A stretch of DNA of 64,000 nt. Source: Methylovorus glucosotrophus (GTDB lineage: Bacteria; Pseudomonadota; Gammaproteobacteria; Burkholderiales; Methylophilaceae). The notes under the pieces were generated by a model. That model had not been told where the DNA came from, searched no databases, and was given only the letters and a program-made list of their open reading frames with translations. The DNA lies in the NCBI RefSeq assembly GCF_009858335.1, contig NZ_VMSE01000001.1:1550001-1614000 (forward strand), in the 5' to 3' direction. Positions 23,980 to 61,205 of this stretch are shown one piece after another; the first letter of the stretch is position 1; every line of letters begins with the position of its first letter. Both the position numbers and the translations under genes were made by a program.

Positions 23980-25599
23980 TTGTTTAATCCATCGGTTTTC
24001 CGTCGCCTGACGATTATTCTTCTGATTGCCCTTGGGCTTTTCATTCTGCTGACCTTTGAACAATACGGCATCAGTAATGATGAAGAGGTCCAGCATATTT
24101 ATGGGCGCTTGCTGCTAGATTTCTATACCTCCGGGTTTACCGATCAGGATGCGTTCCACTATCGCAATCTCTATTTGTATGGCGGCTTCTTTGATCTGGT
24201 AGCTGCCGTGCTGGAAAAATTTGTGCCGATCTGGATCTGGGATCTGCGCCACCTGCTTTCTGCCGCATTCGGCTTGTCCGGCATCATTGCTTCCTACAAG
24301 GCAGCCCGCTTGCTGGGCAATGAGCGCAGCGGGTTTATCGTAGCGGTACTTCTTGCCATTACGGGTGCATGGACAGGCGCCATGTTTACCCACACCAAGG
24401 ATGTTCCGTTTGCCACCTGCATGGTGTGGGCCCTGTATTACTCCATGCGCTTGTCTCGTCAATTGCCTACCCCCAGCCTGGGTTTGTGCATCAAGCTGGG
24501 TATTGCCGTCGGTTGTGCGCTGGGGTTACGCATCGGTGGCGTGTTCTCTGTGTTTTATCTGCTGCTGGCTGTGTTGATCGGCGGCTGGATCGCCGGACCT
24601 GGCTTTGGCGAAAAATGGCGCTACTGGCTGACCTCCGCCTGGCGCCTGTTACCAGCAGGTATCACGGCCTTTGCGCTCATGGCTTTATTCTGGCCCTGGG
24701 GCGTGATGGCGCCCGACCATCCTCTGCAGGCGGCAGAGGCATTTTCCCACTTTGCCTTCAACATGCTGACTGTGATGGATGGTGAGGTCATGAAGATAGG
24801 CGAAGTCCCGCGCGAATACTTGCCTTCCTATTTGCTGGTGCGGCTCCCGGAGGTATTTTTATTGGGCTTGCTCGCCATGCTGGTGATCGGTTTGTTCCAT
24901 CTGCGTGAATGGCGCCCCAAATCCCGGCAATTCCTGCCATGGCTACTGGTCGCGGTGGCAGCCTTGTTCCCGCTGGTGTTCATTTTACTGGACAAACCGG
25001 CCCTGTATAACGGGGTGCGACACTTCACCTTCCTGATTCCCCCGCTTGCCATTCTGTCGGGCCTGGGTCTCAGTATGAGCTGGGATGCACTGGCAAAAAC
25101 ACCCAAGCTGAGATGGCTGGGTGCCGGTGTCGTGACTGCCCTTACGCTGGCAACGACCGTCACCATGGTGCAGCTTCACCCGTATGAATATATCTACTAC
25201 AACCGTTTGGCGGGTTCGATGCCCTATGCAGAAAGCCATTGGGAAGGCGATTACTGGTCAAGCAGCCTGCGTGAAGCCGCAGAGATACTGGAAGACAAGC
25301 TCCCTGAACTGCAGGCTGTAGACAAGCAGGCCGGAGATGGCCTAAATCATGCCCCTTACAAAGTGGCGGTATGCGCCGAATCCATACAGGGTGATGCCTA
25401 TCTGGATCATCGCTTCCAGATCACGAGTGACTGGGTCAGTGCGGACTTTTTTATTTCCAGCACCAATATGAACTGCGATAAAGTGTTGCAAGGCAAGATT
25501 ATTGGCACGGTGGAACGCATGGGCGCTATTCTGGCGGTGGTCAAGGACAGGCGTAACCTGCATCCCATGTATCGCTTCCCGCGCCCTGCCCCTCATTAA
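23980..25599 (+). CDS. GT-C fold (GT39/ArnT-like) membrane glycosyltransferase
   Basis: This 539-residue polytopic protein has about eleven hydrophobic helices. After the first helix comes YGISNDEEVQH, the Asp-Glu motif on the first periplasmic loop that marks GT-C enzymes using polyprenyl-phosphate sugars (PMT, ArnT). TGAWTGAMFTHTKDVPFATCMVWALYYSMRL and the later FPLVFILLDKPALYNGVRHFTFLIPP fit the GT39 superfamily. The start is a TTG with no strong ribosome-binding site, so the exact N-terminus is uncertain. It is the first of three tightly spaced genes. With a GT2 transferase and a YdjC-type deacetylase it resembles the Francisella FlmK–FlmF2–NaxD lipid A amino-sugar pathway; this parallel is inference. 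Confidence 0.82.
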   Translation: MFNPSVFRRLTIILLIALGLFILLTFEQYGISNDEEVQHIYGRLLLDFYTSGFTDQDAFHYRNLYLYGGFFDLVAAVLEKFVPIWIWDLRHLLSAAFGLSGIIASYKAARLLGNERSGFIVAVLLAITGAWTGAMFTHTKDVPFATCMVWALYYSMRLSRQLPTPSLGLCIKLGIAVGCALGLRIGGVFSVFYLLLAVLIGGWIAGPGFGEKWRYWLTSAWRLLPAGITAFALMALFWPWGVMAPDHPLQAAEAFSHFAFNMLTVMDGEVMKIGEVPREYLPSYLLVRLPEVFLLGLLAMLVIGLFHLREWRPKSRQFLPWLLVAVAALFPLVFILLDKPALYNGVRHFTFLIPPLAILSGLGLSMSWDALAKTPKLRWLGAGVVTALTLATTVTMVQLHPYEYIYYNRLAGSMPYAESHWEGDYWSSSLREAAEILEDKLPELQAVDKQAGDGLNHAPYKVAVCAESIQGDAYLDHRFQITSDWVSADFFISSTNMNCDKVLQGKIIGTVERMGAILAVVKDRRNLHPMYRFPRPAPH

Positions 25600-25622
25600 C
25601 CCGGACTCATGAGTCGACAACT

Positions 25623-26621
25623 ATGGTACTAGACCGCGCCTGCGCTAACCCACACATTACGGTGATCGTACCGGCTTTTAATGAAGAGGCCGCGATACAC
25701 CTGACCCTGGAAAACATTGCCAATCAGCTGAACCAGCTAAGCCCTAACTGGGATATCGTCGTGATCGACGATGGCAGCCGGGATCGTACCGCGCAGATCG
25801 TGCGCAATATGCCGCCTTTCCTGAACACCACCCTGGTGCGTTTTTCGCGGAATTTTGGCAAGGAATACGCCATCAGCGCGGGGCTCGAATATGCCACGGG
25901 TGACATCGTCGTTTGCATGGATGCCGATGGCCAACACTCATCAGACCTTGTGTCCGACATGCTGGCGCAATGGCGTCAGGGCTACGACATGGTGTATGCC
26001 GTGCGCAATGATCGCGCCGTGGAGTCACGTTTCAAGCGCTGGGGTTCACGCCTGTTTTATCGCGCCATCAGCCTGGGTGGGCAGATTCATATCCCGCGCG
26101 ATGCAGGTGACTTCCGCCTGATGGACCGCAAAGTTGTGGACGCCTTGCGTGCGCTGCCCGAGCGCAATCGCTTCATGAAAGGCATGTATGCCTGGGTCGG
26201 TTACAAGTCGATAGGCATTCCTTACACCCCCTTGCCTCGCCTGCACGGCGAAAGCGCGTTCTCACGCCTGCGGCTGATGAGCCTGGCGTGGACAGGCATT
26301 ACCAGTTTTTCGGTTATTCCATTACGGCTCGCGAGCGCGGTAGGCGGCATATTGGCATTGCTGGCATTCATTTACGGCATGACCGTCGTGGTCGACAAGC
26401 TATTCCTGCATGAATCGATCCCTGGCTGGCCGACGACCATCGCCAGCATCATGTTCTTCTCAGGCGTGCAACTGCTGTTCATCGGCATTCTGGGCGAGTA
26501 TCTGGCCCGTATCTACGATGAAGTCAAAGGGCGTCCGCCTTACATCGTGGCCGAGGTAACAAGCCCACAAAAAGCGCAGTCGGCGCCCACCGAGAACGAA
26601 ACTGCGGGCACGAGCGAGTAA
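25623..26621 (+). CDS. GT2 polyprenyl-phosphate glycosyltransferase (DPM/ArnC/GtrB-like)
   Basis: In this 332-residue protein the cytoplasmic GT2 domain (about 1–230) shows TVIVPAFNEEAAIHLTLENI, VVIDDGSRDRTAQIV, FSRNFGKEYAISAGLEYA and the metal-binding VCMDADGQH. Two C-terminal membrane helices (about 232–260 and 272–297) anchor it, then a short tail with LGEYLARIYDEVKGRPPY. This layout matches enzymes that load a sugar onto undecaprenyl phosphate (ArnC, GtrB, FlmF). It starts 23 bases after the GT-C gene and is followed after three bases by the deacetylase gene, so all three are one operon. The sugar donor is not readable; the linked deacetylase suggests an N-acetylhexosamine. Confidence 0.92.
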   Translation: MVLDRACANPHITVIVPAFNEEAAIHLTLENIANQLNQLSPNWDIVVIDDGSRDRTAQIVRNMPPFLNTTLVRFSRNFGKEYAISAGLEYATGDIVVCMDADGQHSSDLVSDMLAQWRQGYDMVYAVRNDRAVESRFKRWGSRLFYRAISLGGQIHIPRDAGDFRLMDRKVVDALRALPERNRFMKGMYAWVGYKSIGIPYTPLPRLHGESAFSRLRLMSLAWTGITSFSVIPLRLASAVGGILALLAFIYGMTVVVDKLFLHESIPGWPTTIASIMFFSGVQLLFIGILGEYLARIYDEVKGRPPYIVAEVTSPQKAQSAPTENETAGTSE

Positions 26622-26624
26622 GCC

Positions 26625-27443
26625 GTGACGCATCCCCTGGTTATCAGCGCCGATGATTATGCTTACCATCAGGCAGTTGATGATGGCATTCTGGAGCTGA
26701 TTCGCCAGGGCAGGCTCACCGCGACCTCGTGCATGGTCATGAGCCCGCGCTGGCCAGAGGCCGCCAAAGCGCTGACTCTTGATATCCGGCAGAAAGCGGA
26801 TATCGGCCTGCACCTCGACTTTACGGAATTCGGCGCGCCTGTGCGCCAGCCTCTTTCCCGACTTATCCTGCGTACCTTTTTGCATAGCCTGTCAGCCCAT
26901 GCAATTCGCCAGAACATTCAGGTGCAACTTGACCGTTTTGAAGAGGCGCTGGGTACCAGACCCGACTATATCGATGGTCATCAGCATGTACATCAGCTTC
27001 CGCAGATACGCCAAGCGCTGCTTGAGATCATCCAGCAGCGCTACGGTCAGCACGGCCCCTGGTTGCGTATTTCCAACCCGCCATCTGCTGATGGTCTGAA
27101 AGGCCACATCATTCGCGGCCTGGGTGCGCAGGCACTGCAGCGCGACGCCACCAAGCAAGGCCTGCATTGCAGCAGTCGCCTGCTGGGTGTTTATGACTTC
27201 AATGACACCTCCATGCCTTACCTCGACCGGCTGCGTATCTGCCTGCAACAAGCGCAAGACGCCGGTGACATGCCAGTGCTGATGTGTCACCCCGCCCTGC
27301 CGGACGCTAAAGCCCCAGCGAGCGACCCCATTGCCCACGCGCGTGGCGCCGAGTTTAGCGCGCTGGGCGGCTCTGGCTTTGCCTCCTTGCTCCAGCAGTT
27401 TGCGATCAGCCCGCTACGTGGAAGTGCATACCTATCTACATAG
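26625..27443 (+). CDS. YdjC/ChbG/HpnK-family carbohydrate deacetylase (NaxD-like)
   Basis: This 272-residue YdjC-superfamily deacetylase has metal-site residues in VISADDYAYHQAVDDGILEL (the paired Asp), GLHLDFTEFG and YIDGHQHVHQLPQIR. The family removes N-acetyl groups from sugars: ChbG on chitooligosaccharides, HpnK on hopanoid GlcNAc, and NaxD on undecaprenyl-phosphate-GalNAc for lipid A. A GTG start at 26625 lies three bases after the GT2 stop. Its place behind a GT2 and a GT-C transferase favours a NaxD-like role on a polyprenyl-linked sugar; nothing in the window supports a hopanoid role. A strong terminator follows. Confidence 0.88.
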   Translation: MTHPLVISADDYAYHQAVDDGILELIRQGRLTATSCMVMSPRWPEAAKALTLDIRQKADIGLHLDFTEFGAPVRQPLSRLILRTFLHSLSAHAIRQNIQVQLDRFEEALGTRPDYIDGHQHVHQLPQIRQALLEIIQQRYGQHGPWLRISNPPSADGLKGHIIRGLGAQALQRDATKQGLHCSSRLLGVYDFNDTSMPYLDRLRICLQQAQDAGDMPVLMCHPALPDAKAPASDPIAHARGAEFSALGGSGFASLLQQFAISPLRGSAYLST

Positions 27444-27560: not shown

Positions 27561-28025
27561 TTATTTCTTTTTATCCTTGGGTTTTACGGTGGTTGCCAGC
27601 GGTGCTTTCAGTACGCAATTTTCGCTACCGTATACGCCACCGTTATCATCACCTTCGTAATACAGACGGCGGAAAGTCCAGTGACCCTGCGCGTTCTTTT
27701 TAACTAAGGCCACGCCAGTGCTGTGATCCAGGTTTTTCTTTTCGGAGAAATTGAAGCTGATGGCGAGGCGATTGCCGTCTGCTGCCACCTGCCCGCGATA
27801 CGTTACCGAGTTCTCGGTTTCAACTTCGTAATGGTATGCGCCAAACGTGCCGGAGCTGCTGACATTGTTGAGACGCAAGGTGGCGGTAACCGTGTAGTCA
27901 CCTACTTGATCATTATTGCCTTTGCATTCATACACACCACTGTAATTCTTGCCGGAAAAAGGGATTTTTGCTTGCGCAACACTGGCAACGCCCAGTAATG
28001 CGATGGCCAAAATGAGGTTTTTCAT
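27561..28025 (-). CDS. Small exported protein of unknown function
   Basis: This 154-residue protein has a clear Sec signal peptide (MKNLILAIALLGVASVAQA, cut after AQA). The ATG at 28025 is preferred over one eight codons upstream because it starts the signal. The mature part contains YSGVYECKGNNDQVGDYTVTATLRL, a repeated beta-strand pattern and two Cys (in YECKG and ENCVL) that could form a disulphide in the periplasm. It ends with a Lys-rich tail (KPKDKKK). I do not recognise the family. It is divergent from the GH17 genes. Confidence 0.78.
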   Translation of the reverse strand: MKNLILAIALLGVASVAQAKIPFSGKNYSGVYECKGNNDQVGDYTVTATLRLNNVSSSGTFGAYHYEVETENSVTYRGQVAADGNRLAISFNFSEKKNLDHSTGVALVKKNAQGHWTFRRLYYEGDDNGGVYGSENCVLKAPLATTVKPKDKKK

Positions 28026-28222
28026 TGGGTTGTTTTCTCTACCAGTCATTTACAATTCTTTGCTATTGTACCGCGAAGCCACGCGCTTCAGCAGGTATTT
28101 GCAGGTTTCATTTTGTCTTAAGCGGGCTCCTGCATTATCATTCGGAAGAATTTGCACGCCCTGCGTCAGTCATTCATTATTTAGATGTCACCAAGAGTCC
28201 AACACCTACCGCTCGGGAACCT

Positions 28223-29869
28223 ATGCCTAACGTCAGCACTCCACGATTGTGGATATACAGTATATTCAATTTAAGCCTGCTTGTTCTACTCGGTGCATGG
28301 CTGTGGTCTCAAAACAAGCCAGTGAACCTGACGGAAGCCACGCTGCCGGAAAGCGGCAAACTGCAGTGCGTGTCCTATGCTCCGTATTATGGCAAAGACC
28401 AGACGCCTTTCATCAAGGGCACCGTGATCAGCCGTCAACAAATTGACCGTGATCTGGAGTTGCTGGCAAAGCGCTCTGAATGTGTACGTATCTACTCAGT
28501 CAGCCAGGGCCTGGATTATGTTCCTGAAGCGGCTGCGCGTTTGGGTCTTAAAGTATTGATGGGTGCCTGGATAGGTGCCGACAAGATAGAGAATGATCGC
28601 GAGGTTGCGCTGGCTATCAAACTTGCCAATGAGTATCCACAGGCGATCCGCGCCATGGTCATTGGCAATGAGGTACTGCTGCGCAAGGAACAAACAGCCG
28701 ACCAGCTCAAGGCTTACTTTGATCAGGTAAAAGCCGCCACGCATGTGCCGATTACTTACGCGGATGTGTGGGAATTCTGGTTGAAGCACAAGGAACTGGA
28801 AAGTTCGGTAGATTTTGTCACCGTGCATGTGCTGCCCTACTGGGAAGATGATCCGCAACCGATTGAGCGCGCCATCAGCCATGCGACTGGCGTGATGCAG
28901 CGCCTGCAGGCGAGCTTCACCAAGCCGCTGCTGATCGGCGAAACTGGCTGGCCTTCTGTTGGGCGTCAGCGCAATGGCTCGGTGCCCAGCCTGCTTAATC
29001 AGGCCGAATACATCCGCGCTTTTGTCAGCACCGCCCAGCACAATGGCTGGCAATACAATGTGATCGAAGCGATGGATCAACCCTGGAAGCGCGAACTGGA
29101 AGGCGCGGTCGGCGGCTACTGGGGGCTTTACACCACGGATCTTGAGCCCAAGTTCCCGTTTAACGGCCCGGTCAGCGAGCGTCATGACCAGCCTGCTGAG
29201 CTTGCCATCTGGCTGGCTGCTGGCGCTGTGATCCTGATCCTGTTTACCTTGCTGGCTGACGAACGTCGTCTGCCAGCCTTGATTGGTTCTGGCCTATTGG
29301 GTGCACTTGCCGGGCTGAGTGCCAAGCTGCAATGGCAATACCTGATCGAGGCCTGCCGCAACACTCTGGAGTGGAGCTTGCTAGGCGGCATCACCATCGC
29401 CGGCATATTGCTGCTGATTGCGATCCCGACCCAGTTCAAACGGCAGTCGGACAGTGGTAACAAGCTGATAAAACTGTGCATGTGGCTGATTGCCATTGGC
29501 GTATTTACCTGCTGCATGTTGAGCCTGCCGACATTGCAGATCGTGAATATTTTTGGGCTTACCGATCCATTTGCCACGCGCTGGCTGTTCGAGATCGATG
29601 GTCGCTATCGTGATTTCCCGCTGCCGCTGTATGCGCTGCCGGTTATCCAGCTGGCCATTGGCCTGACCATATTGAACATCAGCCGCAGCAATACATGGCG
29701 GCCTTACAAGGCGATCAATCTGCTGGCACTGGCCGCCATGGTGGCCTGCATTGCCTTCGAAACAGAAAACCGCCAGGCCATTGCCTGGTTGCTGCTGGTG
29801 CTGGCGACGACCTATGCCACCTGGCCGCGGACTACCCTTTTACACAAACTTAAAACGCTGAACGCCTAA
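28223..29869 (+). CDS. GH17 glucanase/transglycosylase-like protein with membrane C-terminus
   Basis: In this 548-residue protein an N-terminal membrane anchor is followed by a GH17 beta-barrel (about residues 40–320). Its acid/base Glu lies in MVIGNEVLLRKE and its nucleophile Glu in LIGETGWPSVG. VTVHVLPYWEDDPQ and EAMDQPWKRELEGAVGGYWGL complete the cleft. About seven membrane helices follow (320–548). GH17 enzymes act on beta-1,3-glucans; bacterial membrane-linked ones are described as transglycosylases that branch or cyclise glucan. I take the ATG at 28223, which begins the anchor, over a longer frame. Its stop and the next start overlap by one base (TAATG), so it is coupled to the glucan synthase gene. 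Confidence 0.88.
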   Translation: MPNVSTPRLWIYSIFNLSLLVLLGAWLWSQNKPVNLTEATLPESGKLQCVSYAPYYGKDQTPFIKGTVISRQQIDRDLELLAKRSECVRIYSVSQGLDYVPEAAARLGLKVLMGAWIGADKIENDREVALAIKLANEYPQAIRAMVIGNEVLLRKEQTADQLKAYFDQVKAATHVPITYADVWEFWLKHKELESSVDFVTVHVLPYWEDDPQPIERAISHATGVMQRLQASFTKPLLIGETGWPSVGRQRNGSVPSLLNQAEYIRAFVSTAQHNGWQYNVIEAMDQPWKRELEGAVGGYWGLYTTDLEPKFPFNGPVSERHDQPAELAIWLAAGAVILILFTLLADERRLPALIGSGLLGALAGLSAKLQWQYLIEACRNTLEWSLLGGITIAGILLLIAIPTQFKRQSDSGNKLIKLCMWLIAIGVFTCCMLSLPTLQIVNIFGLTDPFATRWLFEIDGRYRDFPLPLYALPVIQLAIGLTILNISRSNTWRPYKAINLLALAAMVACIAFETENRQAIAWLLLVLATTYATWPRTTLLHKLKTLNA

Positions 29870-32472
29870 TGACTATTGCCAAACGTTTTGTCACCCCGCT
29901 GCTGTTTGCAGCCGCTATCGCCGCTGCGCATTTCGGATTATGGGCTGCCACCAATGGCACGCTTGAGCTGATTGATGCCCCACCACTGGTTCGCGGCTTC
30001 GCCTACAGTGGTTACCAGCTTGACCAGAGCCCGCTGGATAAAAAGTACCCCAGCAGTGCCGAATTGATGCGCGACTTGCGCATGCTGCACAACTACACCA
30101 ATCGCATCCGGACCTATGGCTCCCTAGAACTGGCTGAAATCCCGGCGCTGGCTTCGCGCCTGGGCATGAAGGTAACGGCTGGCGCATGGCTGCAAGGCAA
30201 CGACGGCGATAATCGTCGCGAAATTGCTGCTCTGGAAACACAGGTTGCCACCTATCCGCAAATCGAACGCGTGATCATCGGTAACGAAGCGCTGCTGCGC
30301 GCCGACCTCACGGTGGAGCAAATGATAGGCTACCTGGATGAGGTGCGTGAAAACGTCAATGTGCCGGTCTCCACCGCCGAACCCTGGCACGTCTGGTTGA
30401 AAAACCCCGAGCTGGTGCGCCATGTCGATTTCATTACGGTGCACTTGCTGCCCTACCACGAGGGCGTGCCTGCGGACAAAGCCGTTGACTATGCATTTCA
30501 GCGTTATCAGGAGTTGATGGAGAAGTACCCGCGCAAGAAGATCGTCATTGGCGAAATCGGCTGGCCGAGCGAAGGTCCGGCCATTGGTGCTGCGGTAGCC
30601 TCCAAGGTGAATCAGGCGCAGTTTGTCCGCGAGTTCCTGGCAAAAAGCGCTTACCAGAATTACGACTACTACCTGATGGAAGCCATCGACCAGCCATGGA
30701 AAGTCAAGGTTGAAGGCTGGGCTGGTGCGTACTGGGGCATGTTTGATGGCAAGCGCCAGATGAAATACTCGCTGCAAGGTGCCGTACCTACCGATACGCG
30801 CTGGCTTATCAAGGCTGGCTGGGCTACGTTCCTGGGCTTCCTGCCTATCCTCTTCATTGCCTACCGTTTCCGGCATTGGGGCCTGGGTGGCCGCCTATCC
30901 ATGGCGATATTGCTGCAAGCGTGTATTACCACGCTGGTCATCGCCTACAACCTGCCGAGCGACTACTACTACAGCCTGCGTGACTTTATCGTGCTGATTG
31001 GCCTGATTGTGGGTATGGCGCTCACCTCCGCCGTATTGATGATCTACGGGGTGGAGTTCAGCGAGGTGATGTTCAAGGGTGGCTGGCTGCGGGCATTCAA
31101 GCGTGCCCAGCCGTTGCCAGCTGATCAGGAAAAATTCGTCTCCGTGCATCTGGCCTGCTACAACGAGCCGCCGGAGATGGTGATTGCCACCATTGAAAGC
31201 CTGGGCAAGCTCGATTACACCAATTTTGAAGTGATTGTGGTCGACAACAATACCAAGGATGAAAGCAAGTGGAAGCCCGTGGAAGCCTACATGGCGAACA
31301 TGCCGGACAACTTCAAGTTCTTCCATCTGCCGCAATGGCCTGGGTTCAAGGCGGGCGCACTCAACTTTGCCCTGCAACAGACCGATCCACGCACCGAAGT
31401 CATCGGCGTGGTGGATGCTGACTACGTCGTCACTCCCGACTGGCTGGGTGCGCTGGTGCCGCATTTCAGCGAAGAAAAAGTGGCCGTGGTCCAGGCTCCA
31501 CAAGCCCACCGTGAATGGGAAAACAATTTCTTCCGCCGCATGAGCAACTGGGAATTCGAAGGCTTCTTCCGCATTGGCATGCACCATCGCCACGAGCGTA
31601 ACGCCCTTATTCAGCACGGCACCATGACACTAGTGCGTCACCAGGCATTGGTGGATGTGGGCGGCTGGTCCGAGTGGTGCATTTGTGAAGATACCGAGCT
31701 CGGCCTGCGCCTGCTTGAAGAGCAATATGAGCTGCGCTACATCGACGAAACCTTTGGTCGCGGCCTGACGCCTTCCGACTTTAACGCCCTGAAATCGCAG
31801 CGCTTTCGCTGGGCGTTTGGCGCCATGCAGATCCTGAAACGTCACATGCCCAAGTTGCTGGGATCCTCTACCCTCAATTTTGGTCAGCGCTATCACTTCC
31901 TGACTGGCTGGTTTGGCTGGCTGGGCGATGCATTGCAATTGGTATTCACGCTGAGCTCCATCGGCTGGACTATGGCCATGCTGGCCTTCCCCAAATCCTT
32001 CAGTCTGCCGGTGCCTATCATGCTGACGCCGATCTTGTGCTTCCTCGTGGTCAAGGGCGCCTTGGGGCCTGTGCTTTATCGCAAGACGATGAAGGAATGC
32101 AAATGGATGGATATCTTTGGCGCTTCGCTGGCTAGCCTGGGTCTTTCGCATGCCATTGCCCGCGGCATTATTGCGGGGCTGGTGCAAAAACGTGGCGTTT
32201 TCAAGACGACTGCCAAAGGCAAAGGCACCGGCAAGCGCAGCCTGATCACCCCCATCCGTGAAGAAATCCTGCTGTTGCTGGCGCTGATTGTCGCCGCTGC
32301 CGCCATGATTTACTCGCGTGGCATCGAAAATGCAGATGCCCAGCTATGGGTCACCATGCTGGCGCTGCAATCCCTGCCCTACCTCAGCACGGTTGCCTGC
32401 CAGATTCTGGCGCAAATGCCTGATCGCAAAGACAAGGCAGCACCTCCAGCCGAAGCCCTTCCGGCAAACTAG
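29869..32472 (+). CDS. GH17–GT2 fusion: processive beta-glucan synthase (NdvB-like)
   Basis: In this 867-residue inner-membrane protein a GH17 domain (about 35–305) has catalytic Glu in VIIGNEALLRAD and IGEIGWPSEG. Membrane helices then precede a processive GT2 domain (about 420–700). GT2 motifs are SVHLACYNEPPEM, VVDADYVV, CEDTELGLRLLE and the QRFRW polymerase motif, followed by further helices (about 690–850). The same GH17–GT2 layout occurs in Pseudomonas NdvB, which makes cyclic beta-1,3-glucans. The likely role is synthesis and trimming or closure of periplasmic or exported beta-glucan, together with the preceding GH17 protein. It ends at a strong terminator. Confidence 0.92.
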   Translation: MTIAKRFVTPLLFAAAIAAAHFGLWAATNGTLELIDAPPLVRGFAYSGYQLDQSPLDKKYPSSAELMRDLRMLHNYTNRIRTYGSLELAEIPALASRLGMKVTAGAWLQGNDGDNRREIAALETQVATYPQIERVIIGNEALLRADLTVEQMIGYLDEVRENVNVPVSTAEPWHVWLKNPELVRHVDFITVHLLPYHEGVPADKAVDYAFQRYQELMEKYPRKKIVIGEIGWPSEGPAIGAAVASKVNQAQFVREFLAKSAYQNYDYYLMEAIDQPWKVKVEGWAGAYWGMFDGKRQMKYSLQGAVPTDTRWLIKAGWATFLGFLPILFIAYRFRHWGLGGRLSMAILLQACITTLVIAYNLPSDYYYSLRDFIVLIGLIVGMALTSAVLMIYGVEFSEVMFKGGWLRAFKRAQPLPADQEKFVSVHLACYNEPPEMVIATIESLGKLDYTNFEVIVVDNNTKDESKWKPVEAYMANMPDNFKFFHLPQWPGFKAGALNFALQQTDPRTEVIGVVDADYVVTPDWLGALVPHFSEEKVAVVQAPQAHREWENNFFRRMSNWEFEGFFRIGMHHRHERNALIQHGTMTLVRHQALVDVGGWSEWCICEDTELGLRLLEEQYELRYIDETFGRGLTPSDFNALKSQRFRWAFGAMQILKRHMPKLLGSSTLNFGQRYHFLTGWFGWLGDALQLVFTLSSIGWTMAMLAFPKSFSLPVPIMLTPILCFLVVKGALGPVLYRKTMKECKWMDIFGASLASLGLSHAIARGIIAGLVQKRGVFKTTAKGKGTGKRSLITPIREEILLLLALIVAAAAMIYSRGIENADAQLWVTMLALQSLPYLSTVACQILAQMPDRKDKAAPPAEALPAN

Positions 32473-57268: not shown

Positions 57269-57344
57269 TCCCCGATAGCTCAGTCGGTAGAGCAACGGAC
57301 TGTTAATCCGTGTGTCCCTGGTTCGAGCCCAGGTCGGGGAGCCA
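57269..57344 (+). tRNA. tRNA-Asn (anticodon GTT), copy 1
   Basis: This is a 76-base cloverleaf. The acceptor TCCCCGA pairs with TCGGGGA. The D-arm is GCTC-AGTCGGTA-GAGC, the anticodon loop CTGTTAA carries GTT, the T-arm contains GGTTCGAGCC, and CCA is encoded. A hairpin terminator-like element follows at once. Confidence 0.97.
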
Positions 57345-57348
57345 AATA

Positions 57349-57380
57349 TGAAAAAGCCCACAGTCTTGTGGGCTTTTTTT
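57349..57380 (+). terminator. Intrinsic terminator after tRNA-Asn copy 1
   Basis: AAAAAGCCCACA pairs with TGTGGGCTTTTT over a four-base loop, followed by T residues. It lies between the two tRNA copies, so the second copy may be read only by read-through or a separate promoter. Confidence 0.9.
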
Positions 57381-57401
57381 CCGATGAACTTTGACCGATA
57401 T

Positions 57402-57477
57402 TCCCCGATAGCTCAGTCGGTAGAGCAACGGACTGTTAATCCGTGTGTCCCTGGTTCGAGCCCAGGTCGGGGAGCCA
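57402..57477 (+). tRNA. tRNA-Asn (anticodon GTT), copy 2
   Basis: It is identical over all 76 bases to copy 1. It lies 57 bases after it and is again followed by a similar terminator. The two tRNA-plus-terminator blocks (57269–57401 and 57402–57534) form a tandem duplication of about 133 bases. Confidence 0.97.
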
Positions 57478-57534: not shown

Positions 57535-58413
57535 TCAGAATCCGAATTTTCCATTCTGATTTTTCCAACCCTGCCGCGGCGGGATTGCTTCCATGGTGTC
57601 CCAATGTTCAGCGATCTTGCCGTTCTGCACGCGGAAAAGATCGTAAAAAGAAGTCCACTTGCCGGCAAACTCCCCTTCACTGATCACCAGTACGAAATTG
57701 CCTTCGCCCAATATCTGATGCACGCGGTTATATTTCATGGTGATGCCTTGCTCGGCCAGATATTTAAGGGCTGCACCCAGGCCTGACAAGCCATCTGCAA
57801 TTGCCGGGTTATGCTGGATGTAATGATCACCGTCAAAGTAAGACGCCAGCTTTTCCAGCTTGCCATTCACCAGGACATCATCGACGAAATCGGCCACCAG
57901 CTTTTTATTAGCGGCGGTTTTTTCAAGGTCTTTGATGGTTTTATCCCCGTCCGTCATGGTGTGCCCACTCGGGTTGGCTTGTGCAGGCGTTTGCTGCAAG
58001 TTATCCCAGTGCTCGACGATTTTTCCATGTTCAAACCGGAATATATCGAACCCGATCTTGGGGCCAAAAAAATCATATTCCGTGTGGGTGATCACAAAGT
58101 CGCCATCTTGCAGCACCCTGACGGTATTGACCTTGGCACTGCCTTTGGGCAATTGCTGCAAGACCGCACCAAACCCTGCCAAACCATCGCCTACATTCAG
58201 GTTATGTTGAATATATTTTTCGGCATTAATGTAGCCAACGGGTGCCTGTTCGCCGGTTTCGATACTTTTGAGTAACTGAATTACCTGTTCCTTTGCTGTG
58301 GGTGTCATAGCAGTTTCCTTTCTTTCAGAGGTGGGGGCGGCGAAACTTTTCATCGCCAGAAGCAAAAGCCCTATCGCAAAAAGCGATGGCATCTTGTCAA
58401 CATTCATACGCAT
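57535..58413 (-). CDS. Exported protein with two SnoaL-like domains
   Basis: This 292-residue protein has a signal peptide (about 1–25, ending SFAA). Two tandem NTF2/SnoaL-like domains follow: about 40–150, with EKYIQHNLNVGDGLAGFGAVL, and about 165–285, with DHYIQHNPAIADGLSGLGAALKYL. The shared motif YIQHN-x(5)-DGL-x-G-x-GA and the endings HGKIVEHWDNLQ and NGKIAEHWDTME show an internal duplication. Members of this fold are cyclases, isomerases or binding proteins; the function here is unknown. GGAG upstream of the ATG at 58413 supports the start. It is divergent from an AraC regulator that may control it. Confidence 0.85.
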   Translation of the reverse strand: MRMNVDKMPSLFAIGLLLLAMKSFAAPTSERKETAMTPTAKEQVIQLLKSIETGEQAPVGYINAEKYIQHNLNVGDGLAGFGAVLQQLPKGSAKVNTVRVLQDGDFVITHTEYDFFGPKIGFDIFRFEHGKIVEHWDNLQQTPAQANPSGHTMTDGDKTIKDLEKTAANKKLVADFVDDVLVNGKLEKLASYFDGDHYIQHNPAIADGLSGLGAALKYLAEQGITMKYNRVHQILGEGNFVLVISEGEFAGKWTSFYDLFRVQNGKIAEHWDTMEAIPPRQGWKNQNGKFGF

Positions 58414-58451
58414 TTAAAGCTCCATAGGGAAAAAGACATTAAAGATAAGAC

Positions 58452-58482
58452 GAGGTAATATTAGGAAATTGATTGAGGTAAT
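58452..58482. promoter_or_regulatory. Direct repeats in SnoaL/AraC divergent spacer
   Basis: GAGGTAAT occurs at 58452–58459 and 58475–58482, 23 bases apart (about two helical turns) on the same face. AraC-family regulators typically bind such direct repeats, and the spacer belongs to an AraC-type gene. Confidence 0.5.
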
Positions 58483-58505
58483 CACAGGTATTTTTGGCGC
58501 TATTT

Positions 58506-59435
58506 ATGGTAAATAAAAGACATTTTCTGAACACGCGCGAAAAAACATCGCCTCCCGCCCTGGAACGCGTGGTCTATACACCACCAGCGTCTTATGGGCT
58601 GGACATTGAAGTGATTCCATTTGCCATCCTGAGAACGCGAATTCTTGAAAACCGTTTCCGGCAGGCGCACCAGATTAACTTCTACCTGATGCTGCTGATC
58701 ACGGAGGGTAGCTCTACCCCGGTGGTGGATTACCGCCCCATTGAATGCAGCAAAGGGACGCTGCTATTGCTGAGCCCTAACCAGGCGCTGCAATTTGATC
58801 TTAATGAAGGTTGCGATGGATGGATGATCATTTTCAAGGCGGAGTTTCTGACGTCTTCGAATGAAGATGCAGGCGTCAATATCTTCATGGCCAATGCGAT
58901 GCATGGTGCTGCAGCCAAGCTGAATCTGGCGGCGGATGCAGAAAGCATTATTTGCGCACGCATGAAGCAGATGCATGCAGATACCCTGGCAGCCGGCACC
59001 AAAGCCATGAAGAATGCCATGCTGAGGTTTGAGTTGCAGGCGGTGATGCTAAGACTGACGATGCTGGGAGAACAGATGGCGGAGACTGAGCCGCATCCGG
59101 CTGAGCTTTCCCGGTTCCGGCGATTCAGAAAACTGGTTGAAGAGAAGTTCGCGCATCAACACGCAGTGGCCGACTATGCTGCTGAACTGGGCTGCACAGT
59201 GAAGAGTCTGACACGGGCAACACAGGCAGCGGTTACCATGGGGGCCAAGGAATACATTGCAGCCAGAATTAACCTGGAAGCCAAACGCCTGCTCACACAT
59301 ACCCAGATGCCGGTCACCATCATCGCTGAAGTGTTGGGGTTTGATGAAGCAACTAACTTCGTCAAATTTTTTAAACGCAATAGCGGAATGGCACCGAATG
59401 CATTCCGCAAACTACATTATTCGATTTATAACTGA
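58506..59435 (+). CDS. AraC-family transcriptional regulator
   Basis: This 309-residue protein has an N-terminal cupin-like effector domain (about 30–180; YRPIECSKGTLLLLSPNQALQFDL). The double helix-turn-helix lies at about 205–305, with HAVADYAAELGCTVKSLTRATQ and MPVTIIAEVLGFDEATNFVKFFKRNSGMAPNAFR, the standard AraC signature. ATG at 58506 is used; a TTG four codons upstream is possible. Ligand unknown. It probably regulates the divergent SnoaL gene and itself. Confidence 0.9.
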   Translation: MVNKRHFLNTREKTSPPALERVVYTPPASYGLDIEVIPFAILRTRILENRFRQAHQINFYLMLLITEGSSTPVVDYRPIECSKGTLLLLSPNQALQFDLNEGCDGWMIIFKAEFLTSSNEDAGVNIFMANAMHGAAAKLNLAADAESIICARMKQMHADTLAAGTKAMKNAMLRFELQAVMLRLTMLGEQMAETEPHPAELSRFRRFRKLVEEKFAHQHAVADYAAELGCTVKSLTRATQAAVTMGAKEYIAARINLEAKRLLTHTQMPVTIIAEVLGFDEATNFVKFFKRNSGMAPNAFRKLHYSIYN

Positions 59436-59463: not shown

Positions 59464-61101
59464 TCATGGCGCACTTTTTTCGCGAAAAGTACCGCTGACA
59501 TCAGGATTTTTAAATAGCCAGTCATCCTTGGCTGCACAGGTTTTGGTCTTCATCTCGAAGGCAATCAGCAAGGCACAGAACAAGTCATCGTGGCTAAGCG
59601 GTGCATCTTCATATGCCTTGATCATGCTGACCGGGTAGTCAAAGTGTTTACCGGCCCAGAAAACGGCAGGAACGTGGGTTTGTTCTATCGGCGCGGTGGC
59701 ATAAGGAGCTGCATGCAGGTATACGCCCTTCTCCCCTAATGATTCACCATGATCACTGACATAAAACATCGCGGTTGCATGGGTGTTGTCGTACTTTTTC
59801 AAGAAATCGATAACATTGGCTAAAAAGTAATCGGTATAGCGAACCGCGTTGTCGTAGCCGTTATTGATTTCTTGCTGGCTGCAACTACGAAGCTCGCCCG
59901 TCATGCAGACAGGTTTGAAATACTCAAAGGCTTGGGGGTAGCGCCGGTAGTATTCCGGCCCATGGTTACCCATCTGATGCAGCACTATCAATATATCTTT
60001 GCCTTTATGCCCTTCGATATATTTATCCAGGCCTGAAAGCATGCCGATATCGCGGCATTCCGTATCGCACTCAGGATTGAATGTAGGACTCTTGAAGTCT
60101 TGATATTCAACGCGGGTAGCCACTCCTTTGGAGTCGGAGTTGTTATCACGCCAGAGGACTTGCACGCCCTCTTCTGACAGCACATCAAGCGCGTTTTTAT
60201 ACTGGCTGGCCTTCTGACGCGTGTAATGTTCACGGCCCAAGGAGGAAAACATGCAAGGCACCGATTCACCTGTGGATGTTCCACAGGAGCTGACATGCTT
60301 GAAGCTGATGACATCGCGCTTTGCCAGCTCGGGATTTGTCGGGCGGTCATAGCCATTGAGCGAAAAACGATCCGCCCTGGCTGTTTCACCCACCACCAGG
60401 ATGACAAGTTCGTTCTCGGGATGCACACCCACCTCCTGCGTATCGGCCGCAGACTCATGCAACACGGTTTTCAAGCTTGCTGCTCGTGCATATTGGCTGA
60501 CATATGACAGGGTCGAATAACTCCACCCCGTTGGGTTTGCATAAAGCCGGGTAATCTTGTGCTCTTTCACAAAACCGGTGAAATTGGAGAGAGCAATGAC
60601 AATCGACAGAATCAGCGCCAGTAACAGCCACAAGGAAAGTTTGACGCGTGAAACCAGCTCTCGCTTACGTCCTTCGGAGGCCGGCCAGTAGCTTATGGCG
60701 ATCGCCGCTGGGATCAGGCCCAGAACCAGGAACCGCAAGACCATGCTGGCATTGACCAAGCCGGCGATTTCCTTGACATCGGTCTCAAAGATATTGTTAA
60801 TCATCACAACATCGATCACCACGCCGTAATGATCCATGTAATAAGCAGCCAGCGACGAAACAAGCAACAAGGTGGTCAGTACCCATTTGCCCATCCTGCC
60901 ATGGCATACCCACAACAGGAAAAGCACAGTGCTTAGCGCAAAAAATAAGGCAATGCTGGAAAAGTGCAGCAAGTTGATACTGAAAGGCTTATCCAGAGGA
61001 TAAATTTCAAGCAACTTGGCCCATAGCGAAAGATTGGCCGCGAGTATGAAAAACAGCGAGGCAATCGCGAGAAAGCGGGTTTGGCGGGTAAAAATGTTCA
61101 T
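59464..61101 (-). CDS. Lipid A phosphoethanolamine transferase (EptA-like)
   Basis: In this 545-residue inner-membrane protein, five N-terminal helices (about 8–180) anchor a periplasmic sulfatase-fold domain. The catalytic Thr lies in VVGETARADRFSLNGY. Zinc ligands lie in that motif, in HQMGNHGPEYYRRYP and in YVSDHGESLGEKGVYLHAAPY. Multiple Cys pairs (SSCGTSTGESVPCM; PECDTECRDIG) match the disulphides of EptA/MCR enzymes. It transfers phosphoethanolamine to lipid A and lowers binding of cationic peptides. ATG at 61101 with AAGGTG upstream is chosen over a TTG 20 codons earlier. Confidence 0.93.
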   Translation of the reverse strand: MNIFTRQTRFLAIASLFFILAANLSLWAKLLEIYPLDKPFSINLLHFSSIALFFALSTVLFLLWVCHGRMGKWVLTTLLLVSSLAAYYMDHYGVVIDVVMINNIFETDVKEIAGLVNASMVLRFLVLGLIPAAIAISYWPASEGRKRELVSRVKLSLWLLLALILSIVIALSNFTGFVKEHKITRLYANPTGWSYSTLSYVSQYARAASLKTVLHESAADTQEVGVHPENELVILVVGETARADRFSLNGYDRPTNPELAKRDVISFKHVSSCGTSTGESVPCMFSSLGREHYTRQKASQYKNALDVLSEEGVQVLWRDNNSDSKGVATRVEYQDFKSPTFNPECDTECRDIGMLSGLDKYIEGHKGKDILIVLHQMGNHGPEYYRRYPQAFEYFKPVCMTGELRSCSQQEINNGYDNAVRYTDYFLANVIDFLKKYDNTHATAMFYVSDHGESLGEKGVYLHAAPYATAPIEQTHVPAVFWAGKHFDYPVSMIKAYEDAPLSHDDLFCALLIAFEMKTKTCAAKDDWLFKNPDVSGTFREKSAP

Positions 61102-61205
61102 CACCTTAATATTGTTATCATGAAGTAGCCAACGCCTGACACGTTGACGGAGAAACTCCAAAGCCCAGCGTAAATGCTCAGGCGATCACTTCAATGCAAA
61201 TCCAA

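Follow-up and report, generated by a model that had tools for sequence, protein, structure and literature searches.

A three-gene operon in a 64,000-nucleotide stretch of the Methylovorus glucosotrophus genome (hereafter the window; C1:1550001-1614000, contig NZ_VMSE01000001.1, of a 2.9-Mb genome in three contigs) probably encodes a polyprenyl-phosphate amino-sugar pathway that decorates the cell envelope, with a phosphate or a sugar on lipid A or the lipopolysaccharide (LPS) core as the most likely acceptor, a reading to which we give a probability of about two in three. The operon encodes a GT-C membrane glycosyltransferase, a GT2 polyprenyl-phosphate sugar transferase, and a YdjC-family deacetylase, and the occurrence of all three in one conserved module fits the making and using of a polyprenyl-phosphate amino sugar. 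An earlier note on this DNA had proposed amino-sugar decoration of lipid A or another envelope acceptor, with the three functions matching Francisella FlmF2, NaxD, and FlmK one to one. Conserved gene context gives good support to the loading half of that pathway, carried by the GT2 and the YdjC protein. The correspondence breaks down at the GT-C, which has no detectable similarity to ArnT in sequence; because it falls outside the ArnT family, the FlmK match fails and lipid A becomes a presumed acceptor.

All three genes lie on the forward strand, 23 and 3 bases apart, a layout borne out by a check of the open reading frames (ORFs). The GT-C gene (23980-25599) encodes 539 amino acids from a TTG start, compatible with the aligned MFxP start in four relatives, and its product shares 95% identity with the Methylovorus mays protein and 94% with the one from M. 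menthalis. The GT2 gene (25623-26621, 332 amino acids; PF00535, 1e-35) was correctly described as ArnC/GtrB-like. Its product is matched over nearly its full length, C-terminal membrane part included, by sll0501 (5ekp, which we take to be GtrB; 1e-78 over residues 8-312) and by ArnC (9hwj; 1.9e-42 over residues 12-318) in the PDB, and it scores under the cut-offs of the curated equivalog models for ArnC (NF007986, 166.3 vs 529 bits) and PgfS. The third gene (26625-27443, 272 amino acids, GTG start) is the sole PF04794 match in the genome (181.4 bits, 4e-53, against a gathering cut-off of 29.7), in agreement with the YdjC-fold deacetylase with metal-site Asp and His residues that had been claimed. 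Seven residues expected at or near the metal site, presumably metal and catalytic residues (D10, D11, H63, H119, H121, H123, and H222), are invariant in 14/14 sequences, and both solved YdjC proteins match six of them, all except H121. No signal peptide is visible by eye, and the protein is probably cytoplasmic.

The GT-C is a different matter. Against Pfam it gives only a weak PMT_2 match (22.1 bits, cut-off 26.1), and it has no NCBIfam match up to E=1, the ArnT model NF009784 included. In the PDB, ArnT (5EZM) was matched neither by the single sequence with phmmer up to E=10 nor by a family profile up to E=1, while two ArnT-like GT-Cs used as positive controls (L174 and L168) matched 5EZM at 2.6e-41 and 4.5e-25. 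An alignment of 42 window-type GT-Cs, window included and L087 left out because a stop interrupted its range, contains the motifs SNDExVQHxYG and FTHTKD in every row and YNGxRHF in 41. The invariant motif after helix 1 is SNDE (D34, E35), so the DE part of the 'DEE' motif previously reported there stands and its third residue, which varies among relatives, does not. ArnT carries the motifs RYA and YFEKP in its first periplasmic loop, and their Tyr and Lys are required for activity according to the published account (PMC5377068). These motifs occur in 0/42 window-type GT-Cs, whether as strict patterns or loosened to RY[AV] and Fx(x)KP, as against 8/8 ArnT-like comparison proteins for both loosened patterns (strict RYA in 6/8, strict YFEKP in 4/8).

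The fold of the window enzyme is that of a GT-C protein with a C-terminal domain that is probably periplasmic. In fold comparison ArnT ranks first, with oligosaccharyltransferases and ALG12 equally close within the tie margin, and identity to ArnT in the structural alignment is 14%. 'ArnT-like' thus does not hold as a statement of sequence membership; judged by sequence and motifs, the enzyme belongs to a different, uncharacterised family, in a subfamily of its own. In one scan of 84,980 species genomes, 372 relatives came to light. The window protein reaches no cut-off in Pfam or NCBIfam; among five relatives that were scanned, two exceed a cut-off, and then only that of the broad PMT_2 model, so the family appears to lack a specific curated model. 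In Methylobacillus glycogenes JCM 2850 the GT-C gene (L121:5956-7571) is split over two overlapping frames, by a frameshift or a sequencing error.

Among 61 genomes (the window's own and 60 relatives), the GT-C was matched in 16 and YdjC in 15; the same 15 carry both, always adjacent, so the pairing is not due to chance. The sixteenth genome (G008) has a distant homologue only (L047, C1:1681531-1682862, 27% identity), with no YdjC found, and this protein may represent another branch of the family. Linkage was then counted for the best 80 of the 372 relatives, a count valid for the closest ones, by a profile score of at least 25 within 4.5 kb between centres. These loci come from Methylophilaceae, Aromatoleum, Azoarcus, Thauera, Methyloversatilis, and some Alphaproteobacteria (Ancylobacter, Novispirillum). 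In 72/80, GT2, YdjC, and a third family, GtrA, are all encoded within 4.5 kb of the GT-C gene, the genes following one of three arrangements: GTC-GT2-GtrA-YdjC (40 loci), YdjC reversed beside GT2-GTC-GtrA (25), and GT2-GtrA-YdjC-GTC (7; GtrA scores of 37-62 bits, with two of these proteins passing the Pfam GtrA cut-off). Two further loci, those of M. mays and M. menthalis, lack GtrA only. In five of the remaining six the GT-C lies <1 kb from the end of the available DNA, and L124 is a real solo; YdjC occurs elsewhere in four of these six genomes and in two not at all. The GT-C/GT2/GtrA/YdjC module is more than vertical inheritance. At 32 loci whose neighbours were compared, these four families alone recur in most loci of each of the three arrangements. 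An ABC transporter ATPase-like cluster (7 loci) and a two-component-like pair (3 loci), both named by eye, also cross arrangements, as large generic families may do.

GtrA is normally a fourth member of the operon and has been lost in Methylovorus. A GtrA gene of ~130-140 amino acids stands between GT2 and YdjC in 12 of the 15 family operons, all 12 outside the window's genus; the one tested passes PF04138 (66.5 bits, cut-off 26.1). The corresponding site in the window is 26622-26624, where the gene is absent, as it also is from the M. mays and M. menthalis operons. GtrA proteins are generally credited with assisting the flipping of polyprenyl-phosphate sugars. The window's genome has two other GtrA genes, each adjoining another GT2. 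One of these pairs lies on contig C2 with a 754-amino-acid membrane protein among biosynthesis genes (L051:3692-7348) and looks like a separate Gtr-like system.

The same association emerges from the side of the deacetylase. Among 200 genomes of the order, a window-type GT-C occurs in six and a YdjC match in 32, and all six are among the 32; in one (G093) the GT-C and the cassette lie ~175 kb apart. These genomes hold 39 YdjC places, of which 29 were read (nine had no locus attached, and the window's own had been examined before): 17 resemble the window YdjC (profile score >=130) and 12 are dissimilar. A GT2 lies near YdjC in 17/17 of the former (14 within the 1.5-kb flank, three after a 12-kb fetch) vs 1/12 of the latter, the wider fetch having covered the cassette-like loci and the dissimilar ones having been viewed with 1.5-kb flanks, except L139/L177. 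Four of the 17 are from Methylophilaceae, as are members of the profile itself. A scan of viral_contigs with the window YdjC protein found no relative.

From these genes we infer a pathway in four steps. GT2 would load an N-acetylhexosamine, most likely N-acetylglucosamine (GlcNAc) from UDP-GlcNAc, onto undecaprenyl phosphate. The cytoplasmic YdjC protein would then deacetylate it to undecaprenyl-phosphate-hexosamine, an activity to which genome context points. The carrier would next be flipped, with the aid of GtrA in most relatives and, in Methylovorus, unaided or by another protein. Finally, in the periplasm, the GT-C would move the cationic sugar to its acceptor in the envelope, the likeliest being a phosphate or sugar group in lipid A or the LPS core.

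Related bacteria elsewhere in the Burkholderiales place the same cassette beside GT-Cs that do resemble ArnT. Ten candidate GT-Cs beside YdjC cassettes were scanned against Pfam: seven (L167, L168, L169, and L172-L175) exceed the PF02366 cut-off, two (L166 and L170) match PMT_2 only, and one (L177) matches nothing. L174 and L168 stay under the NCBIfam ArnT cut-off (187 and 116 bits vs 567), and the other five PF02366-matching proteins resemble them by BLASTP. Three of these cassettes (L167-L169) have exactly the gene order seen in Methylophilaceae. Between the window GT-C and the ten cassette GT-Cs, BLASTP found nothing at E<=0.001 and a profile found nothing. In ArnT-like cassettes at L146, L153, and L160 (wider fetches L175, L173, and L174), a GtrA match lies on the strand opposite to YdjC.

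Trees of the GT2 and YdjC partners were built from 34 of the 80 loci, the window, and 10 of 14 comparison cassettes, without the long-branch rows L172, L176, L177, and L178 and the outgroup rows; no partner GT-C was assigned at L165 and L171. Holding the window-type partners together costs 9.0 log-likelihood units for GT2 and 15.9 for YdjC (approximately unbiased test p 0.043 and 0.040), values that are post hoc and marginal because the grouping was first visible in quick trees, and a single group of window-type partners appears in 0% of 200 bootstrap trees for either protein. The partners in Methylophilaceae and Methyloversatilis lie closer to the ones that accompany ArnT-like and other GT-Cs than to the ones in the Aromatoleum-type arrangement. 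This pattern is suggestive of, though not proof for, an exchange of terminal transferases between loading cassettes.

The genome also encodes a second, unpartnered GT-C at C1:219417-220910 (reverse strand; L181:8418-9911), its one match to the NCBIfam ArnT model (127 bits, cut-off 567). Its first loop contains RYA and FWAKP, and it matches ArnT in the PDB at 1e-25. The gene lies between chemotaxis-type and LysR-type genes (named by eye), and profiles for GT2, GtrA, and YdjC found no match within 1.5 kb of it. Nine such loci were read with 1.5-kb flanks, seven others (L190 and L192-L197) not. GT2 and GtrA adjoin the gene in 5/6 relatives from other genera (L185-L189) and in 0/3 Methylovorus copies; the sixth relative, L191, is more distant (34% identity) and has neither alongside. 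ArnD has no match in the genome, with a positive E. coli control. By the NCBIfam ArnC model, the genome has two full-length GT2 matches and two partial ones; of the full-length pair, one is the window GT2 and the other lies on C2 beside a GtrA gene of its own. One may therefore ask whether a single Methylovorus amino-sugar donor serves two acceptors, the operon's GT-C transferring to a new acceptor and the C1:219417-220910 enzyme to lipid A. The lack of partners and of an ArnD match and the scarcity of full-length ArnC-like GT2s make this plausible, and we regard it as a tentative possibility. Against it, 5/8 Methylophilaceae genomes with an ArnT-like match have no YdjC match (G007, where the ArnT-like match is weaker, G009, G022, G024, and G030), so the ArnT-like family does not need a YdjC-made donor everywhere, and a strict dependence of ArnT-like GT-Cs on YdjC was rejected. 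The GT2 beside the other GtrA is unmatched by the ArnC model, and this third GT2-GtrA pair is a further candidate source of donor.

The chief competing explanation starts from the membership of the GT-C in an uncharacterised family: with the same donor, the GT-C would hand the amino sugar to a protein, an exopolysaccharide, or a membrane lipid. Its distance from ArnT in sequence, a fold that, within the tie margin, resembles oligosaccharyltransferases and ALG12 no less than ArnT, and the separate ArnT-like GT-C that could serve lipid A all speak for such a non-LPS acceptor. The occurrence of the cassette beside ArnT-like GT-Cs in related bacteria, three times in the same gene order, argues the other way, as does the finding that no fifth family recurs in most loci of all arrangements at the 32 loci, where neighbours were named in part. 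On balance a non-LPS acceptor seems unlikely, though it deserves to be taken seriously.

Two explanations that dissociate the deacetylase from the glycosyltransferases fare far worse. The operon could be a GtrABC-like system in which O-antigen or core receives a plain or N-acetylated sugar from the GT2 and the GT-C, with YdjC an unrelated passenger, as the best PDB match of the GT2 to the glycosyltransferase sll0501 and the usual presence of GtrA would allow; a passenger would hardly lie within 4.5 kb of the GT-C in 74 of the best 80 loci and in three gene orders, nor would window-like YdjC proteins keep so consistently to GT2 genes, and we consider this very improbable. It is just as hard to credit that the YdjC protein acts on chitooligosaccharides (ChbG-like) or hopanoids (HpnK-like) and is unrelated to the glycosyltransferases. 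Sequence searches turned up just two solved relatives, one of them a chitooligosaccharide deacetylase and the other an uncharacterised UPF0249 protein, which favours the idea, but the GT2 association of window-like YdjC proteins contradicts it. Identity with either enzyme was rejected on scores of 66.3 bits for chitin disaccharide deacetylase (NF002559, cut-off 227) and 49.1 bits for HpnK (TIGR03473, cut-off 232.6). Cationic amino-sugar decoration of the envelope, with LPS first among the acceptors, is the most likely function of the operon.

At a separate locus outside the operon, the window contains the EptA-like gene that had been noted (59464-61161, reverse strand), confirmed at the family level as a phosphoethanolamine--lipid A transferase (NF028537, 571.6 bits, cut-off 500; PF08019 and PF00884) and scoring under the EptA equivalog cut-off (422.7 vs 660). 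It adjoins a SnoaL-domain gene and an AraC-type regulator (57535-59435), and two tandem tRNA-Asn (gtt) genes, 57 bases apart, lie at 57269-57477 on the forward strand. Closer to the operon, 27561-28049 (reverse strand) encodes a conserved 162-amino-acid protein with a signal-like N-terminus, unmatched in Pfam and NCBIfam. Two genes at 28025-32472 (forward strand) carry weak GH17-like domains, joined in the second by a GT2 domain, and resemble a pair for beta-glucan synthesis; such a pair lies 3' of the operon in many Methylophilaceae and not in other lineages, and the 162-amino-acid protein gene is kept between operon and glucan genes in most Methylophilaceae examined. The queG and beta-glucan genes that flank the operon are not retained in other arrangements, and for this reason a functional meaning was rejected for them.

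The listings searched in one open-access library showed no report of this GT-C/GT2/GtrA/YdjC system and, by title, no lipid A structure in Methylophilaceae. The present findings suggest that polyprenyl-phosphate amino-sugar loading cassettes extend well beyond pathogens to methylotrophs and aromatic degraders, and that the terminal transferases coupled to them are of at least two kinds, with no detectable sequence similarity between the kinds. If the two-acceptor reading is broadened, loading cassettes of this kind would swap terminal transferases. As the family stands outside specific curated models, it offers a defined enzyme set whose acceptor could be found experimentally in a bacterium that is not a pathogen.

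Three known systems invite comparison. In Bordetella, LgmA is a GT2, LgmC a YdjC protein, and LgmB an ArnT-like enzyme. Published accounts describe the Lgm pathway as adding glucosamine to lipid A phosphates (PMC4993483, PMC10743493, PMC8168481), and lgmD, the fourth gene of the lgm cluster in Bordetella pertussis, as not essential (PMC4993483). The lgmABCD cluster, taxonomically a nearer comparison than Francisella, thus has a dispensable fourth gene, as GtrA seems to be in the window operon; compared by description, it differs in that the window GT-C is not ArnT-like by sequence. In Francisella, FlmF2 loads N-acetylgalactosamine on undecaprenyl phosphate, NaxD (YdjC family) deacetylates it, and FlmK transfers the resulting galactosamine to lipid A, the same combination of GT2, YdjC deacetylase, and GT-C enzyme. 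The flmF2 and flmK genes bear neighbouring locus numbers, FTN0545 and FTN0546 (PMC4688374). Again by description, the differences are the family of the terminal transferase and the presence of GtrA in window-type operons, and the analogy with both systems would be apt for the logic of the pathway, not for its terminal enzyme. The GtrA/GtrB/GtrX cassettes of serotype glucosylation likewise combine a GtrB-like GT2, GtrA, and a variable GT-C; unlike them, the window-type module has a linked YdjC deacetylase, which implies an amino sugar.

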